A DNA stretch of 39,331 bases from the IMG/VR virus record IMGVR_UViG_3300045020_000093, positions 1 through 39,331 of that record. One strand, given 5' to 3'. The translations under genes were made by a program, and so were the position numbers. Positions 8,051-39,331 of this stretch are shown piece after piece. Positions within the stretch are counted from its first letter, which is position 1; every line of letters starts with the position of its first letter. Under the pieces are notes generated by a model. It saw only the letters and a list, made by a program, of their open reading frames with translations. It was not told the DNA's origin and did no database searches. Origin of the DNA: a virus.

Positions 8051-8668
8051 TTATCTATTCCTTCTGATCTTCTGAATTGTTTGGTAATGACAACCATAAT
8101 CAGTCGCAATAACACGAGACCCTCTTGGATCATTGCGAATCGCTGTAAGCTGTTGGTCCGTCAACTTCTCTCCCCATACCTTCCTACCATTGATTGTTCT
8201 TTGTATCCTATATTCATACCGTTTTGGTTTGATGGTTCCCTTGTTAGGATGCGCCTTCATATAAACTGCGTGATTGGCGTTTCGTTCGGGCGAGTTAGAA
8301 TGCCCCTTTACAAATCTACCTTTATTTGGATGAGCCTTCTGCCATTCCGCTATCTTAGCTCTTTGTTCTTCTCCCCACATTTGACCGCCAGATTTTAGGT
8401 TATATCCTCTATCTCTATTTCGGCTATCATATCGAGTAATCAAACCCTTCTCAATACAATCAGCTTGCCAAGGATTATTAGCAAAGTCTACGATTTGAAA
8501 TGTGAATTGATCTATCCCGTGATTTTTCATAGCGTTGTGAATATATTGTCCAGTTCGCGCTCGTTTAGCATCGTATTTATGTTGTTTCCATCGGATGCGC
8601 GGGTTGATAGTCCGTCCGATGTAAACTTTACCATTTTTCCCATTCGTTATTGTGTAAAGATAGTGCAT
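8051..8668 (-). CDS. GIY-YIG homing endonuclease
   Basis: A 205-aa protein. The GIY-YIG domain is at the N-terminus: YLYTITN, then KVYIGRT, Arg in NPRIRWKQH, a conserved Glu in CIEKGLITRYD and the Asn of GYNLKSGG. Basic linker repeats follow (KAHPNKG appears twice), then a C-terminal helix-turn-helix-like end (VIATDYGCHYQTIQKIRRN). ATG at 8668 is chosen because GGAG lies 7-10 bases upstream. An in-frame GTG at 8683 lacks a site. The gene overlaps the last 41 bases of the adaptor gene, so it appears to have landed on that gene's 3' end. It probably promotes its own spread between related phages. Its start lies in a perfect hairpin. Confidence 0.9.
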   Translation of the reverse strand: MHYLYTITNGKNGKVYIGRTINPRIRWKQHKYDAKRARTGQYIHNAMKNHGIDQFTFQIVDFANNPWQADCIEKGLITRYDSRNRDRGYNLKSGGQMWGEEQRAKIAEWQKAHPNKGRFVKGHSNSPERNANHAVYMKAHPNKGTIKPKRYEYRIQRTINGRKVWGEKLTDQQLTAIRNDPRGSRVIATDYGCHYQTIQKIRRNR

Positions 8669-9419
8669 TGTAATCTCCTGCACTATCTATATCAAGACTT
8701 TGTGAAATGCCCCCCCACCCTCTACGGCCGCGCATCCAGCCTCCGCCACGATTCAAGCAATTTTGCATTACTTGAGGCCCCATACTCATTCTATTCTTGG
8801 CTGCATTTCTTACTTTCTCTTCGTAATACAGTTTTTGAGCGGTAAAGCCTTCGGTAGGTAATACCAGCGTTGTATAGACCTTTTCACCAGTAGCCGCCAC
8901 CGCATACTCAATAAAGCCCTCTGTATCCATATCATAGGGCAAGGCTTGATTATCTTGCAGCCATTGAAACTTGGGTTGATACCAAATCTGATATTGCCCA
9001 CTGCATAGATTGAGAGGCTCAATGACGATATTGGTATCCATCACACGCGCCTTACGCTGCACTTGGTTGCCATAGTTGGCAAACATATTGGAGTAAGGCG
9101 TATTGAAGTAATTCCTTTGTTGGAAACCAAACCCGTAGATAGTGATCCATTGTCCGGGCGAACCAAAGTCTACGCCCCTCAACTTGAAAAAGTCAGGGGG
9201 TAGGGGAATCATATTGGTGTTGACGTTATTGTTGCTCGGCCCGCCGAGGGTAGCAAGATAGGTTTTGATATGATAATCTTCGTAGTCAGTGACAAGGATT
9301 TCGTCCAGAGATCCCAAGGACAGATTGACCATAGTGGACAACGCTTCTTGAGTGATCGCATCATCTTCTTGGATGCCTAATCTCTGTCGACAATAGATAA
9401 CTAATTCTCCAAAATTCAA
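8628..9419 (-). CDS. Head-tail adaptor/connector protein candidate
   Basis: A 263-aa protein. The N-terminus has the pattern of phage head-completion adaptors: a short helix (MNFGELVIYCRQRLG), ITQEALSTMVNLSLGSLDEIL, then PLPPDFFKLRGVDF. A later helix-rich part carries FTAQKLYYEEKVRNAA. Gene order (portal, scaffold, capsid, decoration, then this) supports an adaptor that sits under the portal. The tail GGGWMRGRRGWGG is followed by about 25 residues that run into the GIY-YIG gene, so the natural C-terminus may have been replaced when the endonuclease inserted. Confidence 0.7.
   Translation of the reverse strand: MNFGELVIYCRQRLGIQEDDAITQEALSTMVNLSLGSLDEILVTDYEDYHIKTYLATLGGPSNNNVNTNMIPLPPDFFKLRGVDFGSPGQWITIYGFGFQQRNYFNTPYSNMFANYGNQVQRKARVMDTNIVIEPLNLCSGQYQIWYQPKFQWLQDNQALPYDMDTEGFIEYAVAATGEKVYTTLVLPTEGFTAQKLYYEEKVRNAAKNRMSMGPQVMQNCLNRGGGWMRGRRGWGGISQSLDIDSAGDYNALSLHNNEWEKW
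8659..8687 (-). promoter_or_regulatory. Hairpin over the start site of the GIY-YIG gene
   Basis: Perfect 9-bp inverted repeat, GATAGTGCA and TGCACTATC, with an 11-base loop (8668-8678). On the minus-strand mRNA the loop holds the ribosome binding site GGAGA and the A of the AUG, while UG of the start codon lies in the stem. In readthrough mRNA from the structural operon this would hide the start. Phage T4 homing endonucleases are known to be controlled by comparable RNA hairpins. Confidence 0.75.
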
Positions 9420-11816: not shown

Positions 11817-11828
11817 ATGATTTCCCTC
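11812..11828 (+). promoter_or_regulatory. Start-codon hairpin of the second GIY-YIG gene
   Basis: GAGGGA and TCCCTC form a perfect 6-bp stem with a 5-base loop. The stem contains the purine-rich ribosome binding bases and the A of ATG (11817); TG lies in the loop. Arrangement and effect parallel the hairpin at 8659-8687 on the other GIY-YIG gene, although the sequences are unrelated. Confidence 0.6.
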
Positions 11829-12425
11829 TACTGCTACCAAAATAAAATAAATGGCAAGGTGTATATTGGACAGACGGTTGATCTAAAAGACCGCGATCGA
11901 AAGCATACGTTTAGCGACGCTATGTATATGCCAATCGATAGGGCAATACTAAAATATGGTCGAGATGAATTTAGCCTATGGATTATTGACCAAGTAGCAA
12001 CTCAACAAGAGGCAGATGATTACGAGATTGATATGATTGCCAAGATGAGAAAGGAGCTTGGCAGAGAGTATGTCTATAATGTGTCAGACGGGGGAGGGGC
12101 GCCCATGAAAGGCAAGAAACACTCTGCCGCCTCTATCAAAAAGATGTCCGAAGCCCACAAGGGAAACAAGGGAGCACCCGGAAATAAAACTTGGGTAGGG
12201 CGCAAACACTCCGAAGAAAGTATTAGGAAGATGTCAGCAACCAAGAAAGGCAAGCCAAGTCCTAACAAAGGTAAGACGAAATATGCGAGCGAAGAAGAAA
12301 GAATAGCTGCAAATCGCTTATCTAGTAGGCTTTCACAGAGAAGGCGCCGCTTACGACTCAAACACGAAAAATTATCGCTTGCGTCTCGCTTCTTGCGCCT
12401 TCCTGCTTTCGGCAATGGCTTTTAG
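11817..12425 (+). CDS. GIY-YIG homing endonuclease with NUMOD3 repeats
   Basis: A 202-aa protein on the strand opposite the structural genes. The N-terminal nuclease has SLYCYQNKINGKVYIGQT, Arg/His in DLKDRDRKH, a Glu in EADDYEIDMI and YNVSDGGG. Two NUMOD3-type DNA-binding repeats follow: GKKHSAASIKKMSEAHKG and GRKHSEESIRKMSATKKG. A basic tail (SQRRRRLRLKHEK) ends the domain part. The last 54 bases overlap the 3' end of the convergent scaffold gene, so the final residues may simply be read from scaffold sequence. It was probably gained independently of the other GIY-YIG gene, because linker and DNA-binding modules differ. Confidence 0.9.
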   Translation: MISLYCYQNKINGKVYIGQTVDLKDRDRKHTFSDAMYMPIDRAILKYGRDEFSLWIIDQVATQQEADDYEIDMIAKMRKELGREYVYNVSDGGGAPMKGKKHSAASIKKMSEAHKGNKGAPGNKTWVGRKHSEESIRKMSATKKGKPSPNKGKTKYASEEERIAANRLSSRLSQRRRRLRLKHEKLSLASRFLRLPAFGNGF

Positions 12426-25592: not shown

Positions 25593-26258
25593 ATGAAGAA
25601 AGAACCACGAATCAAAGCAGCTACGTGGACCAAAAACGCTAAGCCCGTCTATTGGCCCCTCAGCCGTCTCTTGCGTCTGATTGATGACCAATTCACCTAC
25701 CAGCCCAGGAAGGGTAAGCTGATTTGCCACAACGGGACGGCTCCCCATATTAGCCCCGTCTATGGGGATTTTAGTCATAGGGTGATGTATCGCTCCCCCA
25801 AGGGGCAACTGTCCTACGTCCGTATCCAAGCGGTTAGGATCGCCCACTACCTAGGGACCGGGGAATGGTCCACGGCTCGTTTCATCCGGTTGATCGATGA
25901 AGATCCCACCAACCTCAAACTATCCAACCTATTGCCGGCCGGATACTCTCAACACACCAGCCGTTACTATAAGCTGAGGGGAGACTTTACCAGCCAATAC
26001 AAGGGGGTTTCTTGCCCGGCCCAACACCAAAAGAAAGGACGCTGGACGGCCAAGATCTGCCACCAGGATCGCCCCTTCTATTTGGGCTCCTTCGATACCG
26101 AAGAAGATGCGGCAGTGAACTATAACATTGCCTCTCTAGAGCTGAGAGGAGATTTTGGGCGCCTCAACCCGTGTAGGGCTCCCACCGAAGAAGAACGAAG
26201 AGCCGTGGTCAAGCTACTGAAAGCCAAACTCAACAAGCAAAAGGAAAAGAAACAATGA
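25593..26258 (+). CDS. HNH-AP2 protein with degenerate HNH part
   Basis: A 221-aa protein. Residues 134-191 form an AP2/ERF DNA-binding domain (SQYKGVSC, GRWTAKI, FYLGSFDTEEDAAVNYN, then LRGDFGRLN). Residues about 60-115 align by pattern to phage HNH domains (VRIAHYLGTGEW, then IDEDPTNLKLSNLLP). The usual catalytic residues are replaced: His of HRL by Val81, and the Asp-His pair by Arg99-Leu100; only Asn107 remains. It looks like a homing endonuclease that has lost cleavage but kept DNA binding, perhaps a domesticated regulator. That reading rests on hand alignment. The stop is in an ATGA overlap. Confidence 0.85.
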   Translation: MKKEPRIKAATWTKNAKPVYWPLSRLLRLIDDQFTYQPRKGKLICHNGTAPHISPVYGDFSHRVMYRSPKGQLSYVRIQAVRIAHYLGTGEWSTARFIRLIDEDPTNLKLSNLLPAGYSQHTSRYYKLRGDFTSQYKGVSCPAQHQKKGRWTAKICHQDRPFYLGSFDTEEDAAVNYNIASLELRGDFGRLNPCRAPTEEERRAVVKLLKAKLNKQKEKKQ

Positions 26259-27052: not shown

Positions 27053-27250
27053 TCTAAAAAGAAAAAACTCCGAAGGCTGGCTCTCCAATCCGAGCAACAA
27101 AGCATCGATAATATCATGCGCACCATCGCTCGAATGCAAGAGAACATAGCCGACCATGGCAATCCAATGACTTTGCTATATTCACCTACTGAGGCGGTAG
27201 AATGGTCTTATAGCAACAACCCATTATTATCTATGATAAAGGCAAAATGA
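27044..27250 (+). CDS. Small basic hypothetical protein
   Basis: A 68-aa protein. ATG 27044 has AAAGG six to seven bases upstream and is preferred to an in-frame ATG at 27005, which lies inside the preceding membrane peptide gene. Very basic N-terminus (MSRSKKKKLRRLALQ), then a helix (DNIMRTIARMQENIAD). The DNA around its start (TATGATAAAGG then AAAATGA) is repeated at the start of the next gene. Confidence 0.65.
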   Translation: MSRSKKKKLRRLALQSEQQSIDNIMRTIARMQENIADHGNPMTLLYSPTEAVEWSYSNNPLLSMIKAK

Positions 27251-27252
27251 AC
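27231..27252 (+). repeat. RBS cassette repeat, copy 2
   Basis: TATGATAAAGGCAAAATGAA at the start of the 27247 gene; second copy of the segment at the 27044 start. Confidence 0.65.
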
Positions 27253-27732
27253 CTTCGTTTATGTCGCTTATGCAAGTCACCAATGGATGGTATTCATCTT
27301 GGCAACTCGTGTTGCACTAATAATGATTGCAACTATGAAACGGTGGAAGATATAGAATATTGGAGTTTTGAGATCGGCAAATATGGGATAACGTGTAGCA
27401 ATAATCTACAACCTCCATTCGATGGTGACACAGAAATAGAATGGACAGATGACCAATCAAATTGCCAGTGTGAAATGTGCGAGGCAAGAAGAAGATACGC
27501 AGGCAAAAATGAAGAAGAACTATTCAGAGAAGCAATCAATTCGATCAATAGACAGGCAGCTGCTGGTCTCGGTGTATTTTCATTCGGCATACCTGCGTCA
27601 CCTCTTCCGCCATCAAGTGCTCTTGATCCGCCAGAATGTCCATGCGTCCATTCGCTCACCATCCAAGGTATAGTGTTAGAGCCAGCTACCACCACACTGC
27701 TACGAATACAAACAATAATAACTTTTCAATGA
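27247..27732 (+). CDS. Zinc-ribbon-like hypothetical protein
   Basis: A 161-aa protein. CRLCKSPM near residue 6 and CCTNNDCNYE near 22 form a likely zinc site. CQCEMCEARRRYAGK at about residues 73-87 could be a second. After about residue 105 the sequence becomes Pro/Ser-rich and looks unlike the rest, so a frameshift or recent change in the 3' end is possible. It starts in an ATGA overlap. Confidence 0.65.
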   Translation: MNLRLCRLCKSPMDGIHLGNSCCTNNDCNYETVEDIEYWSFEIGKYGITCSNNLQPPFDGDTEIEWTDDQSNCQCEMCEARRRYAGKNEEELFREAINSINRQAAAGLGVFSFGIPASPLPPSSALDPPECPCVHSLTIQGIVLEPATTTLLRIQTIITFQ

Positions 27733-27742
27733 GCTAACTAAT

Positions 27743-28000
27743 ATGCTATGCCCAATGTGTCAAAAAGAAATGATACCAGATACCAAGCCGAAACAGTTTG
27801 ATTATGTTTGTGCTGAATGTAATATTATTTTCTACTCAAAAGAAATACTCAGAGCACATAAACGATGGCTAACTCAAAATGAAAAAATACAACAGGTAAA
27901 TCTACAACTTGATACTGACTATTACTATTTCAAAGAACACCAAAAGTTCTATACTGTTAGTGAGATGGAAAGAATATGCCGCCTGAAAGCCTTCCTATGA
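27743..28000 (+). CDS. Tandem zinc-ribbon protein, copy A
   Basis: An 85-aa protein. CPMC at residues 3-6 with EMIPDT, then CAEC near residues 28-31, makes a four-Cys zinc ribbon. The C-terminus is DYYYFKEHQKFYTVSEMERI followed by CRLKAFL. The next gene down encodes a clear paralogue, and the two are also very alike in DNA at their 5' ends, so this is a recent duplication. No strong ribosome site. Role unknown; possibly a nucleic-acid or host-protein binding factor. Confidence 0.8.
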   Translation: MLCPMCQKEMIPDTKPKQFDYVCAECNIIFYSKEILRAHKRWLTQNEKIQQVNLQLDTDYYYFKEHQKFYTVSEMERICRLKAFL

Positions 28001-28248
28001 AATGTCCAATGTGCCAAAAAGAAATGATACCAGATACCGAGCCGAGATTCTGGGATGATCGATGTTTGGAGTGTAATATATTCTTCTATTCAAAAGGAAT
28101 TATAGTTGATAGACGATTACTTGAAGATTTATATCAAGTACAACACAATTTGCTACCAGAGACTGACTATTATTGGTTTGAAGAACACCAAAGGTTCTAT
28201 ACTGTTTCTCAAATGGAACGAATTGCTAAACTGAAAGCCTTCTTATGA
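27997..28248 (+). CDS. Tandem zinc-ribbon protein, copy B
   Basis: An 83-aa protein. ATG 27997 overlaps the copy A stop as ATGA; an in-frame start seven codons earlier is less likely. CPMC and CLEC give the zinc site, with the same EMIPDT stretch. The C-terminus (YYWFEEHQRFYTVSQMERI then AKLKAFL) matches copy A. Close paralogue. Confidence 0.82.
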   Translation: MKCPMCQKEMIPDTEPRFWDDRCLECNIFFYSKGIIVDRRLLEDLYQVQHNLLPETDYYWFEEHQRFYTVSQMERIAKLKAFL

Positions 28249-28454
28249 TCTGCCAAAATATGAAGCATTATTGTCCAATTTGCCAAAAAGACATGATACT
28301 ATCATTGATTGGAATGGACGAAAGAGATACCAAATATGTCTGTTATGATTGCAAATGTGCCTATCGACCATCATTCGATTGTTGGTATTTAGGAAATATC
28401 CAATATACTGTTGATCAAATGGAACGCATAGCTCGATTGAAGTCTTTTTTATGA
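28245..28454 (+). CDS. Tandem zinc-ribbon protein, copy C
   Basis: A 69-aa protein starting in an ATGA overlap. CPIC with QKDM and CYDCKC give the zinc site. It ends IQYTVDQMERIARLKSFL, like copies A and B. The middle is shorter and has diverged more. Confidence 0.78.
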   Translation: MICQNMKHYCPICQKDMILSLIGMDERDTKYVCYDCKCAYRPSFDCWYLGNIQYTVDQMERIARLKSFL

Positions 28455-28774
28455 GAGAGATAATATCAAATGAATTGTGTCCGCGTTGCGGCAAGTTGTG
28501 GAAGCGCATCGAAAAAGGTCAGTATTCGGAATGCAGCAAAGATTGCGATATGCTATATAGTGTCGATAGCGATGTCTATTACTGGTTTCTACCCAGTGGA
28601 GGCACTCTCGCATGGTTTCGCGATCGTTGCGTCTACCTTAGTGATCGAAGGTTTACGGCGGCTCCCCTTCGGTTGTGGCCTCGCAAACTCCCATTGGAAC
28701 ATATGACCACGTTGCCTCTGCTACCTTTCAACATTACCGAAGAACGCTTGCGCTTGTTGATCACTTTCTCTTGA
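28451..28774 (+). CDS. Tandem zinc-ribbon protein, copy D (diverged)
   Basis: A 107-aa protein starting in an ATGA overlap. CPRCGKLWKRIEKGQYSEC near the N-terminus is the ribbon remnant; CSKDC could complete it. The C-terminus has no LKAFL motif but ends in a related-looking helix (ITEERLRLLITFS). Last gene of the early operon; it converges with the holin candidate, six bases between stops. Confidence 0.7.
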   Translation: MREIISNELCPRCGKLWKRIEKGQYSECSKDCDMLYSVDSDVYYWFLPSGGTLAWFRDRCVYLSDRRFTAAPLRLWPRKLPLEHMTTLPLLPFNITEERLRLLITFS

Positions 28775-28978: not shown

Positions 28979-29779
28979 TCAGGGTCCTATGCTGATATTA
29001 TAGAGGGCGCCGGCATAAGCCAAGAAGTTGGTGCGTTCAGTCGAGGTCATCACGCGATTGATTACCAACACTTCTACAATCTTGCCTTTTAGACTAAAAA
29101 AGGTACCTCCAGCGCCTCCACCGAAGAAGAATGGTTGCGTAGGCACGCCGAAAGTTTCGCCAGAAAAGGCTGGCGTAAAGGCGGTCAAACTAAGTGTGCT
29201 ATTGGGGTCGTTGAACTCGTTGAATAAGATCACTGGATCACCAGTAATGGTTCCAGCGGCGAAAATAGCATCAATATCAATGGTAGAACCAGAGCTCTGA
29301 TAACCAGTGGTGTTGACGTAGTTATCGCCACTATCTCCAATCAATGTTTGCACGCCAAAGCCAGCCGCACCATTACCAATAGAAATCAATGTATATGGTT
29401 CCGATAAGGTTGGAGAGAAGGCAGTCGCTTGTGCCAAATATTGCGGAGCAGTATTCAAGAAGCTGATACTGTTCTGGTTATTATATTGGCTATCGGCGAC
29501 ATTCAAGGTTGGTCTATTGACCGAGGTGGCTTGCGAGAAGGTCGGACCGCTATTGCCAGAACTGTCTCCCCAAGCTGACACCACTCCACCCGATGAGGTA
29601 ACGTGCATATCGGCTCGATACCAGCCAACAAGAGCTGTCCCCAAGTTGAGAGGGCTCCACACCGCTGGGGTAGAGTTATTGTTGATAACAATATAATTGG
29701 AAGTGCTAGAAGTTGGAACGGAATTGTTGATCATTCCTGATTGAACTGCATTGTTTACAAATAGGTAAGTGGAAGTCAT
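28979..29779 (-). CDS. Lectin-like (concanavalin/LamG fold) virion protein
   Basis: A 266-aa protein. A LamG/ConA-like jellyroll fits LVGWYRADMHVTSSGGVVSA, then WGDSSGN and NSISFLNTAPQYL. The closing strand GKIVEVLVINRVMTSTERTN is the usual 'identity of the object, then E' end of such domains. Paralogous to the C-terminal part of the 423-aa gene upstream. It is a host-contact or glycan-binding candidate, encoded apart from the main tail block. Confidence 0.7.
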   Translation of the reverse strand: MTSTYLFVNNAVQSGMINNSVPTSSTSNYIVINNNSTPAVWSPLNLGTALVGWYRADMHVTSSGGVVSAWGDSSGNSGPTFSQATSVNRPTLNVADSQYNNQNSISFLNTAPQYLAQATAFSPTLSEPYTLISIGNGAAGFGVQTLIGDSGDNYVNTTGYQSSGSTIDIDAIFAAGTITGDPVILFNEFNDPNSTLSLTAFTPAFSGETFGVPTQPFFFGGGAGGTFFSLKGKIVEVLVINRVMTSTERTNFLAYAGALYNISIGP

Positions 29780-29780
29780 C

Positions 29781-31052
29781 TTAGATCAACCCTGCATAAT
29801 AAGTGTTGAGTTGGATAATCTCATTGGTAGTCAAAGCCCTATTCCAGCAATCAATCTCCACCATGGAGCCGACAAATTCCGCCGTTTCAGAGGCACCACT
29901 GGTAGTACCACAAGCTGACATAGGGATTTCGCCCGAGAAGTTAGCAGGCGCCATTAGAGGATTAGGACCGGCAGTGGAGACACCCCCACCGTCCACTTGG
30001 ATCGATAGAACTCCACCCGAGAAGGTAGCTACCACGTAATGAGGAATGGCAGGATTGACGCCGGGGGAAGCCGCATACCAAATGTCAGAGTTTAGATCCA
30101 GATACCAAACCCCAAAAACCAACAGGCCTGAACTAAGTCCGCATACCAAAGCCGGGCCAGCACCCGCTCCACCTTGATTGGCGGTCAAAATAGTAGGAGT
30201 AGTGTAGAATGCGGAATGGTTGAAAGACGCACTACCAGTAAAGAGACAAGCCGCGCCCATCGACCATTGAGACAGAAAGACAAAGCTACTCAAAAAACTA
30301 ACCGTGGTTCCGGTGGTCATCTGATAAGCTGCTTGCGTGTAGTCAGAGAGTTCTATAAAATCAATGGTTGGATTGTGACCCACACTGGCATTGCTGGGAT
30401 TGTATAAGCCGGTGTTGCCATAAGTGGAGGTAAGCGGCGCCCAATAGAAGCCGGGTCTAGCTTGGTTGTCCCACTGAAAGACCGATCCGCTGATCGTGCT
30501 AATGTTGCCTCTGGCTTGTAAGCAGAGGGTCAGTTGATTAGCCGCAGTTGGCACCGCTTCCGCCGCAGAAGAAAAGGAAGGCACCACTGGGCCAGCTACA
30601 GACCCCCATGTGGCAGTGGTAGAAGAGGTAGCGGTAATGGTGTAGCCGTCTTGTGGCTCCCCGCTAATGGTGACGTTTCCGAGGGCGGTAACCGCCTCTG
30701 GTGTCCAGTATCCGTCGCTATTCCACGTCAGCACTTGACCCACGGTTGGGGCCGGTATCTGGCTCAAAGGACGACCCAAAAGCCCAGCTACTTGCGGGTT
30801 AGGGTAGAAGCCTTGCAAATCCCCTTGCGCTGGCCCAGTGGGTAGGTTGACCACTTGCGTAGGATTGTTGACATTGATTACGCTAGCGACAGCAATAGTA
30901 TTAGGAACAAATTGCCCGAAGTAATCGGAGTATTGTCCGGTATAATCTGGGGTGTTGTAAACCACCCAATAAACCGGTTGATAAGCAGAAGTAACAGAAT
31001 TGGCTAAAGTGCCAACCATCGTATATTTCAAGAGTACTGGAGGAGAAGTCAT
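29781..31052 (-). CDS. Tail fibre/receptor-binding protein with lectin-like domain
   Basis: A 423-aa protein. The N-terminal third includes LPTGPAQGDLQGFYPNPQVAG then PTVGQVLTWNSDGYWTP, a repeat widely used in phage fibre and appendage proteins. From about residue 170 comes a LamG/ConA-like domain, ending GSMVEIDCWNRALTTNEIIQ, paralogous to the 266-aa protein downstream (one base separates the two). It probably ends a fibre with glycan-binding heads. Receptor identity unknown. Confidence 0.75.
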   Translation of the reverse strand: MTSPPVLLKYTMVGTLANSVTSAYQPVYWVVYNTPDYTGQYSDYFGQFVPNTIAVASVINVNNPTQVVNLPTGPAQGDLQGFYPNPQVAGLLGRPLSQIPAPTVGQVLTWNSDGYWTPEAVTALGNVTISGEPQDGYTITATSSTTATWGSVAGPVVPSFSSAAEAVPTAANQLTLCLQARGNISTISGSVFQWDNQARPGFYWAPLTSTYGNTGLYNPSNASVGHNPTIDFIELSDYTQAAYQMTTGTTVSFLSSFVFLSQWSMGAACLFTGSASFNHSAFYTTPTILTANQGGAGAGPALVCGLSSGLLVFGVWYLDLNSDIWYAASPGVNPAIPHYVVATFSGGVLSIQVDGGGVSTAGPNPLMAPANFSGEIPMSACGTTSGASETAEFVGSMVEIDCWNRALTTNEIIQLNTYYAGLI

Positions 31053-34774: not shown

Positions 34775-35221
34775 ATGAGAGATAAAGCTAAACAGATGAT
34801 TGCGATCAAGCGATATCAGAAGACCGAAAAGGGTAAGGCGGCTAATGCGAGAGCCTGCAAAAACTATCGTCTAAAGCACCCTGATAGGATCAAGGCAATT
34901 GAGCTCAAACGCTCACAAGACGAAGCTCGCAAGGAGCGCCGCAGGCAACAAGCTAAGGAGAAGCGAGCCAAACAGAAGTTCGAAAGAGAAAGATACCTCA
35001 AACATTGCATTGAGATACACACTGACTTATATCTGTCTTTCCAAAGTGTAGGCTTATTGCAAGAGGAATATAAAGAGAATGTCGTGTTATGGGTTTTGGT
35101 TGAGCTGGAAAGGTATACCTCAGTCTTCCCCAAAACCAAAGCCTTCGAACTAAACTTGCCTACCAGAATGCACATTGCCGAACAGGTTCAGCGCAGGGTC
35201 AACCTAAAGGCGTTCCTGTAA
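34775..35221 (+). CDS. Basic coiled-coil hypothetical protein ending LKAFL
   Basis: A 148-aa protein. The first 75 residues are highly basic (KRYQKTEKGKAANARACKNY; later KERRRQQAKEKRAKQKFERE), a coiled-coil likely to bind nucleic acid. The second half is a helical domain ending EQVQRRVNLKAFL. The same C-terminal five residues end the tandem zinc-ribbon proteins. GGAGAGAGGG precedes the ATG. Monocistronic between two terminators or promoters. Confidence 0.75.
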   Translation: MRDKAKQMIAIKRYQKTEKGKAANARACKNYRLKHPDRIKAIELKRSQDEARKERRRQQAKEKRAKQKFERERYLKHCIEIHTDLYLSFQSVGLLQEEYKENVVLWVLVELERYTSVFPKTKAFELNLPTRMHIAEQVQRRVNLKAFL

Positions 35222-38512: not shown

Positions 38513-39331
38513 TAGAGCGCCTTCCAGCCTTTGGCCTTAGCAATGTCTGCCGCACTCTTTTTAGACTCACCATCTTCCTTGGCTGGGGTGAAACGTTGTA
38601 CCGCCGCTTCTCTGGTTTGACCCAAGGTCTGTAATTGCTGTTCAATTCCTTTGAGTGCAGTGGCACGGTCTTGCACGCTAGAAGAACCGGTAGCCACGTG
38701 TTGCACCAAACGAACTAGCGGATCGTCTTGCCAAGAGCTAGGGGCCGTAATATTGCCGGTATTGAGTATTCCCCCTTCGTTGCCCTCTCCACCTCCACCA
38801 ACTCTATGCAAGCCTTTGGCAATGGTGAGGTTAGCGGTCAATTCTTTCAAGCCTTGCTCAAACTCTCCCTTTTTGGAAGGATCGTTCTGTATGGCTTGCA
38901 ATCGTGCTACTTGATCTTGAGCGCTCTTGAGGGCGGTTGTCTCTTGAGGCCATGCGTTGGCTTCTGCGTCATTGGGTGCCAGTCCCTTGGATCCATCGGC
39001 TAGGGTGATGACGCGCTTTTGAGCATCATCCGCCAGCTTGGACTTTTCGGCAAAGCTAAGACGTCTACCGCCCATAACATCCGGCACCACTGGATTACCT
39101 TTGGCATCCAAAGTGACGCTATCGCCCTCTGTTGCTGGGGTTGCGGAAGCGGGAGGAGTGAACTCCAACAGACCTGATTTAGGATTGTAGGAACCACCGA
39201 CCGCATTTGCAGCCGAAGCAAGACGAGCGGGCGAGAAGCCTTGGGCTTGCACACTTTGGACGGCTTTTTGATCCGCTTCCTCTGGCGTCATGGTGCCAGC
39301 GGTAACAGCGGCATCAAAGCCAGCTCGTTGT
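38512..39331 (-). CDS. Virion-associated protein, C-terminal part (gene crosses contig junction)
   Basis: Continues the protein that starts at 1061; together 586 aa. This part includes EEADQKAVQSVQAQGFSPAR, a region with SVTLDAKGNPVVPDVMGGRR and long Ala/Gln/Lys-rich helices (LQAIQNDPSKKGEFEQGLKE), ending AKGWKAL. An ATG at 39291 is internal and not the real start. See the 1-1061 entry. Confidence 0.85.
   Translation of the reverse strand, partial: QRAGFDAAVTAGTMTPEEADQKAVQSVQAQGFSPARLASAANAVGGSYNPKSGLLEFTPPASATPATEGDSVTLDAKGNPVVPDVMGGRRLSFAEKSKLADDAQKRVITLADGSKGLAPNDAEANAWPQETTALKSAQDQVARLQAIQNDPSKKGEFEQGLKELTANLTIAKGLHRVGGGGEGNEGGILNTGNITAPSSWQDDPLVRLVQHVATGSSSVQDRATALKGIEQQLQTLGQTREAAVQRFTPAKEDGESKKSAADIAKAKGWKAL
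39233..39331. repeat. Terminal redundancy, copy 2
   Basis: Exact 99-bp copy of 22-120. It lies inside the minus-strand gene that crosses the junction. A length of 99 fits an assembly k-mer overlap better than a biological direct terminal repeat, but sequence alone cannot separate the two. Confidence 0.9.

Follow-up and report, generated by a model that had tools for sequence, protein, structure and literature searches.

Four consecutive small genes of the virus DNA analysed here belong, as judged from sequence comparisons, to a large, undescribed and fast-diversifying family of phage proteins, in which a predicted zinc ribbon at the N-terminus is followed by a highly variable middle part and then by a C-terminal peptide that is constant, basic and terminated by F-[L/W/S]. 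This peptide appears to behave as a modular tag separable from the ribbon, since many ribbon-free small phage proteins end in the same peptide. The window, by which we mean the whole virus record IMGVR_UViG_3300045020_000093 (39,331 nucleotides), contains the following genes and tags, all genes being mechanical ORF calls.

27247..27732, + strand: gene E, 161 aa, upstream of A, with a CRLC start and the C-terminus RIQTIITFQ; HMM 8.7 bits
27743..28000, + strand: gene A, 85 aa, predicted zinc ribbon and C-terminal tag; leave-window-out HMM 22.0 bits, AlphaFold2 pLDDT 89.5
27965..27997, + strand: tag of A, MERICRLKAFL, the last 11 codons
27997..28248, + strand: gene B, 83 aa, predicted zinc ribbon and C-terminal tag; HMM 20.1 bits
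28213..28245, + strand: tag of B, MERIAKLKAFL
28245..28454, + strand: gene C, 69 aa, predicted zinc ribbon and C-terminal tag; HMM 20.4 bits
28419..28451, + strand: tag of C, MERIARLKSFL
28451..28774, + strand: gene D, 107 aa, predicted zinc ribbon and second-flavour C-terminal tag; HMM 17.5 bits
28739..28771, + strand: tag of D, EERLRLLITFS, second flavour
34775..35221, + strand: 148 aa basic protein without CxxC, ending in VQRRVNLKAFL

The first-pass annotation had described four open genes of these lengths with an N-terminal CPxC in each, ATGA overlaps between them and tails of the type MERI-x-x-LKAFL/LKSFL in the first three, and all of these features were confirmed, the overlaps being present at A-B, B-C and C-D. 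The tail of D is of the second flavour (NITEERLRLLITFS), and the last 21 aa of D are 67% identical to a protein of contig G007. When the genes were scored with an HMM built without the window sequences, A, C, B and D, in this descending order, all exceeded the best of 120 shuffled sequences (13.2 bits), indicating at the level of sequence that the resemblance of A-D is not due to chance. We delimit the ribbon-tag family by a score above the shuffles with such a profile, and A, B, C and D are assigned to it. The score of gene E was not above the best shuffle; E, whose C-terminal peptide is probably of the tag type as well, probably belongs to the cluster family.

Genes A and B had been considered very alike in DNA and thus recently duplicated. 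However, their nucleotide identity is 71% over 83 codons and their protein identity 63%, and the NG86 method gave dN 0.285 and dS 0.893 (ratio 0.32). Based on these values, A and B seem to be old paralogues under purifying selection, neither recent nor decaying, and a pseudogene-like substitution pattern is excluded for this pair. A scan of the window in all frames for a terminal [hydrophobic][K/R]x[F/Y][L/I] returned A, B, C and the gene at 34775-35221, which lies 6 kb from the cluster, is unrelated to A-D and also ends in LKAFL. When the tag group was defined by [K/R], a hydrophobic residue at -5 and F at -2 at the exact C-terminus, six window ORFs were found to carry the tag, with 0.1 expected.

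A CxxC is located near the N-terminus in 182 of 289 tagged proteins, and 120 of these 182 contain a second C/H pair. The body profile of the CxxC-tagged proteins matched 149 of the 182 and none of the 107 proteins without CxxC, and C3, C6 and C26 are conserved in the alignment. The ribbon-tag design recurs in contig G010 in a nearly unbroken series of about 30 genes, each of roughly 100 aa, and the window genes A-D are a small version of this type of array. The majority of densely tagged stretches consist, as in the window, of tandem predicted zinc-ribbon genes. The repeated expansion pointed out earlier turned out to be far stronger than noted, since other phages have arrays in which the paralogues number more than 20.

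The earlier impression that the family is undescribed holds as far as it was tested, matches in Pfam, NCBIfam, PHROGs, PADLOC, PDB, BFVD and cultured phages being unconvincing. Genes A-E had no match at the curated cut-off in Pfam and NCBIfam and weak matches to unknowns only in PHROGs, and none of 54 array members matched Pfam or PHROGs at 0.001. When 79 tagged proteins were compared with PADLOC, three single-protein weak matches were obtained (best E 9.6e-4). Single-protein searches returned no close relatives of A or B from cultured phages, plasmids or IMG/VR, and no relative of the portal protein. Solved structures (PDB) and viral predicted structures (BFVD) gave no outstanding match, the best structural match for A being ZifS (Z 4.1). 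A C1QBP-like match of one array member (Z 6.2, rmsd 3.8, 89 aligned) was rejected, as it falls in the range usual for models without a clear match. The open-licence literature yielded no paper on LKAFL/KAFL tails.

A profile of A, B and C (profile A1) detected one relative in IMG/VR, the 90.5-kb contig G001, where five ribbon genes are arranged as two clusters. Several ribbon-free genes of G001 end in KAFL or KAFW, and 15 of its ORFs end in [KR]AF[LIVW], with 12 in a non-overlapping set for which about 0.02 are expected. When IMG/VR was searched with a DNA pattern that encodes K-[LF]-K-A-F-[LF] and includes an ATGA stop, 35 stretches were found; ORFs with that end are present in about 22 of them, seven of which lie close together, in 7 kb of a contig of 394 kb. 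The second tag flavour (...KTLLVFS, ...RLLITFS) was identified through position statistics. In G004, Phe occupies position -2 in 100 of 433 small proteins (21.8 expected), and K/R at -9, K at -6, L/M at -5 and A at -3 are enriched as well. The second-flavour scan revealed arrays in contigs of 178, 202, 209 and 480 kb, and in one 12-kb stretch the tag is carried by 17 of 29 non-overlapping genes. Tagged large phages from the IMG/VR pattern searches span 90-480 kb. In prokaryotic genomes, the KAFL DNA pattern gave isolated matches, with no arrays among the 80 matches listed.

At the exact C-terminus of the tagged proteins, the consensus of the tag is [K/R]-Φ-x-[K/T]-[L/I/M]-x-x-F-[L/W/S]. For counting we used the expression [KR].{2,4}[LIMVFYW]..F. 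at the C-terminus, picked after the data had been seen, and the tagged small ORFs by this expression are 6/38 in the window, 11/54 in G001, 17/56 in G003, 74/433 in G004, 32/174 in part of G005 and 31/38 in part of G010, compared with 0.1-2.4 expected per set; within the huge group, the contigs are relatives of one another. Counts were at background in stretches of phage G (0/46), phiKZ (0/43) and T4 (0/61), in cellular loci (1/367) and in a Lak-A1 stretch. The record MW495066.1 ('Microcystis phage MaAM05') was excluded from the controls on account of the bacterial look of its genes: its first 50 kb carry ribosomal protein, secE, nusG, ilvD and type 3 secretin genes and look like bacterial chromosome rather than phage. 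In an added, independent test with the pattern KLKAFW plus stop, in-frame ORF ends were found at 47 of 72 loci, compared with 6 of 46 for a permuted-codon control that was made afterwards; several tags were present at only one control locus, and its contig was one that KLKAFW also matched. The tag is almost never present in proteins of more than 250 aa. We also observed a well conserved tagged protein of 115 aa (L287:5914-6261) that ends in MMKLKAFW, has no Pfam or PHROG match and has homologues in L293, L300, L315, L329 and L330, being present in at least six contigs in all.

It is the peptide rather than the DNA that is conserved, because codons vary freely: 82 KAFL-type ends use all four Ala codons, both Phe codons, both Lys codons and all three stops. 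The match to the tail profile reaches the last residue in 67 of 78 proteins and stops one residue short in 11. Among 131 homologous pairs, 103 show higher conservation in the last 11 residues than in the body (0.48 vs 0.36), a figure that favours the tail since the tag was also a selection criterion. The net charge is +1.9 in the last 14 residues and about 0 in the body.

The C-terminal helix had been regarded as part of one ribbon family, but it is separable and found on many ribbon-free bodies. We found 65 strong-tail proteins with neither a CxxC nor a match to the ribbon profile, while 0.39 were expected among 1289 small ribbon-free proteins. They form 55 blastp clusters, which possibly conceal remote homology. 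The ribbon-free carriers include proteins with HREDGPA repeats and runs of genes in G005, and a further set has a similar end, DLYDIL.DEEKLQALVSKLKLKAFW and variants, with differing N-terminal parts. In one G004 protein (L054:431-919), two HREDGPA units seem to be fused head to tail; it has LKAFF in its interior and LKAFW at its end, and looks like the result of a lost stop between tandem copies.

To account for a constant end on variable proteins, we infer a docking role, in which the variable body of each protein would bind its own target while the constant C-terminus would dock all carriers onto one common receptor, which would more probably be host-encoded than phage-encoded. The phage would thereby deploy a whole set of small takeover proteins, each working like an adaptor and all centred on the same hub. 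We regard this reading of variable bodies, a common C-terminus, one receptor and host takeover as about evenly balanced between right and wrong. The broader proposal of a general C-terminal tagging code in a set of mostly huge phages, by which small proteins of unrelated folds, tens per genome, would be plugged into one machine, probably of the host, has in our estimate somewhat less than an even chance; if true, the code would be a modular host-takeover system serving, for example, the targeted destruction of many host proteins. The conflict with a host target suggested in the first-pass annotation is plausible; of that interpretation as a whole, the expanded character of the family stood, as did its undescribed character so far as tested, and the recent duplication was not supported. 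Of specific candidates for the receptor, a Clp-type protease machine comes first, and is a doubtful one when taken singly. Two adjacent clpP genes occur in all five tagged contigs longer than 250 kb, as follows.

G004:C1:327782-328901: clpP pair
G005:C1:221835-222978: clpP pair
G007:C1:172588-173747: clpP pair
G011:C1:310327-311467: clpP pair
G1046:C1:182370-183532: clpP pair

The clpP neighbourhood, beside a topoisomerase I-like gene, is conserved among the huge contigs, and because of this common gene neighbourhood the five contigs are one related group rather than independent cases. Searches of the tagged phages revealed no ClpX/ClpA D2 domain; phage G, which lacks the tag, has both ClpP and a D2 domain.

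The tail could instead be a C-terminal degron that recruits no targets and through which an AAA+ protease of host or phage would quickly degrade the takeover proteins, so that each small takeover protein would act only briefly. Hydrophobic ends at the free C-terminus are typical protease signals, and the clpP pairs of the huge tagged phages would suit such a role. The ClpX/ClpA D2 domain, not found in the tagged phages, speaks against it. Known C-degrons, moreover, tolerate variation, while K/R(-9), K(-6), L(-5), A(-3) and F(-2) recur here, and we consider this explanation rather unlikely. An ssrA-like degron in the strict sense, with a tmRNA-encoded end of the LAA type, was rejected, the present peptides being gene-encoded and ending in F-[L/W/S]. 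A slightly lower chance, still in the unlikely range, is given to the tail as a structural element, namely the last helix of related folds, in which case the seemingly unrelated bodies would be remote homologues that need the helix for their core. The AlphaFold2 model of A, which also counts against docking since the tail could belong to the fold, shows ribbon strands, a helix at 33-43, a hairpin at 60-71 and a confident helix at 72-82 followed by AFL; a beta-rich array member was likewise modelled with a C-terminal helix (98-111; pLDDT 75.5), and a hairpin-like stretch precedes the tail in window ribbons and HREDGPA proteins alike. On the other hand, the 55 clusters have no detectable similarity, the tail match sits at the very C-terminus, and the basic positions are conserved as well as the hydrophobic ones.

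A short basic and hydrophobic C-terminus common to many proteins would also fit a targeting signal that directs them to one place, such as the membrane, an infection compartment or the virion, and not to an acting partner. This is improbable in our view: the phages that have the tag differ in their virion proteins, so a capsid signal is disfavoured, and the mean helical moment of the ribbon-free tails (0.83) is no higher than that of untagged proteins (0.82). Finally, the tail might reflect a device at the level of DNA or translation, either termination-reinitiation between overlapping genes or a recombination sequence. An ATGA overlap does follow 39% of tagged genes and 11% of untagged small genes, but about half of the tagged genes have no overlapping neighbour, so translational coupling is not the general reason for the tail; the gene at 34775-35221 ends in LKAFL-TAA without overlap, and codons and stops vary freely. 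This last explanation is largely refuted and retains hardly any weight.

A direct repeat of 99 bases (22-120 = 39233-39331 of the window), with the first 21 bases of the record unmatched, suggests a complete or circular genome. Because it carries terminase, portal and integrase genes, the virus looks like a temperate tailed phage. An HNH-type endonuclease gene with an AP2-like end (25593-26258) and two GIY-YIG-like genes (8051-8683 and 11817-12425), set among structural genes, are probable homing endonucleases. Two genes of the opposite strand follow the cluster.

28979..29779, - strand: fibre-like/virion structural protein adjoining the cluster, with homologues in G009 and G007; phrog_10356, E 9.8e-10
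29781..31052, - strand: LamG-type fibre-like gene, 47% identity to a G001 gene (E 3.5e-70)

The latter matches Laminin_G_3 with E 4e-5, which is under the Pfam cut-off. In both the window and G001, a fibre gene adjoins the ribbon genes or sits one gene off. This arrangement suggests that phages infecting the same host have exchanged genes, and would make a host receptor likelier than a phage one. When the window was compared with the huge phages by blastp, only ribbon genes and fibre-like genes were in common, and no candidate receptor common to both phage lineages was found; with so little in common, the receptor is more likely host-encoded.

Attempts to identify the host were as follows. The similarity of the integrase or topoisomerase was uninformative, tRNA genes, ribosome-binding sites and TAnnTTTG counts indicated no host, and a structural protein of the huge clade matched none of the cultured phages. 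A capsid search in three phyla led to a single, distant contig of phage-like character, part of a Bacteroidota genome, whose capsid protein has 31% identity. The structural gene order of this contig (L255-L257, G826:C12) is similar, and 0 of its 31 small ORFs are tagged, so we claim no host.

Huge phages carry many small genes of no known function, and a common C-terminal peptide is a first handle on them. Its presence on a sizeable share of small genes predicts one receptor, and it allows carriers to be spotted in the genome of any phage. A receptor that proved to be a protease or some other hub would show a phage redirecting many host proteins via short, easily evolved adaptors.

Among known systems, the RxLR effectors of oomycetes and the PEXEL proteins of Plasmodium are effector repertoires with a motif near the N-terminus that serves secretion or export. 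They resemble the tagged proteins in comprising many small variable proteins with one short motif in common, and differ in belonging to eukaryotic pathogens, in the N-terminal side of the motif and in its role in secretion or export; there is no homology. The ssrA peptide, a tmRNA-added sequence with the ending LAA, and other C-terminal degrons resemble the present tag in being short and hydrophobic, in having a free carboxylate and in forming the C-terminus of many proteins. SspB-type ClpX adaptors dock a variable cargo binder on the unfoldase via a C-terminal ClpX-binding peptide. The short basic-hydrophobic C-terminal peptide is the likeness, docking being our proposal for the phage proteins, whereas these are single adaptors of other sequence and the phage proteins come in arrays. 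Among phage proteins, SPO1 Gp53 is an adaptor-like protein of ClpC (PMC6873191). It is one 25-kDa protein, and the abstract describes no C-terminal peptide common to many proteins; the likeness is that a phage protein of a host-takeover module engages a host AAA+ protease in an adaptor-like manner (PMC6873191).
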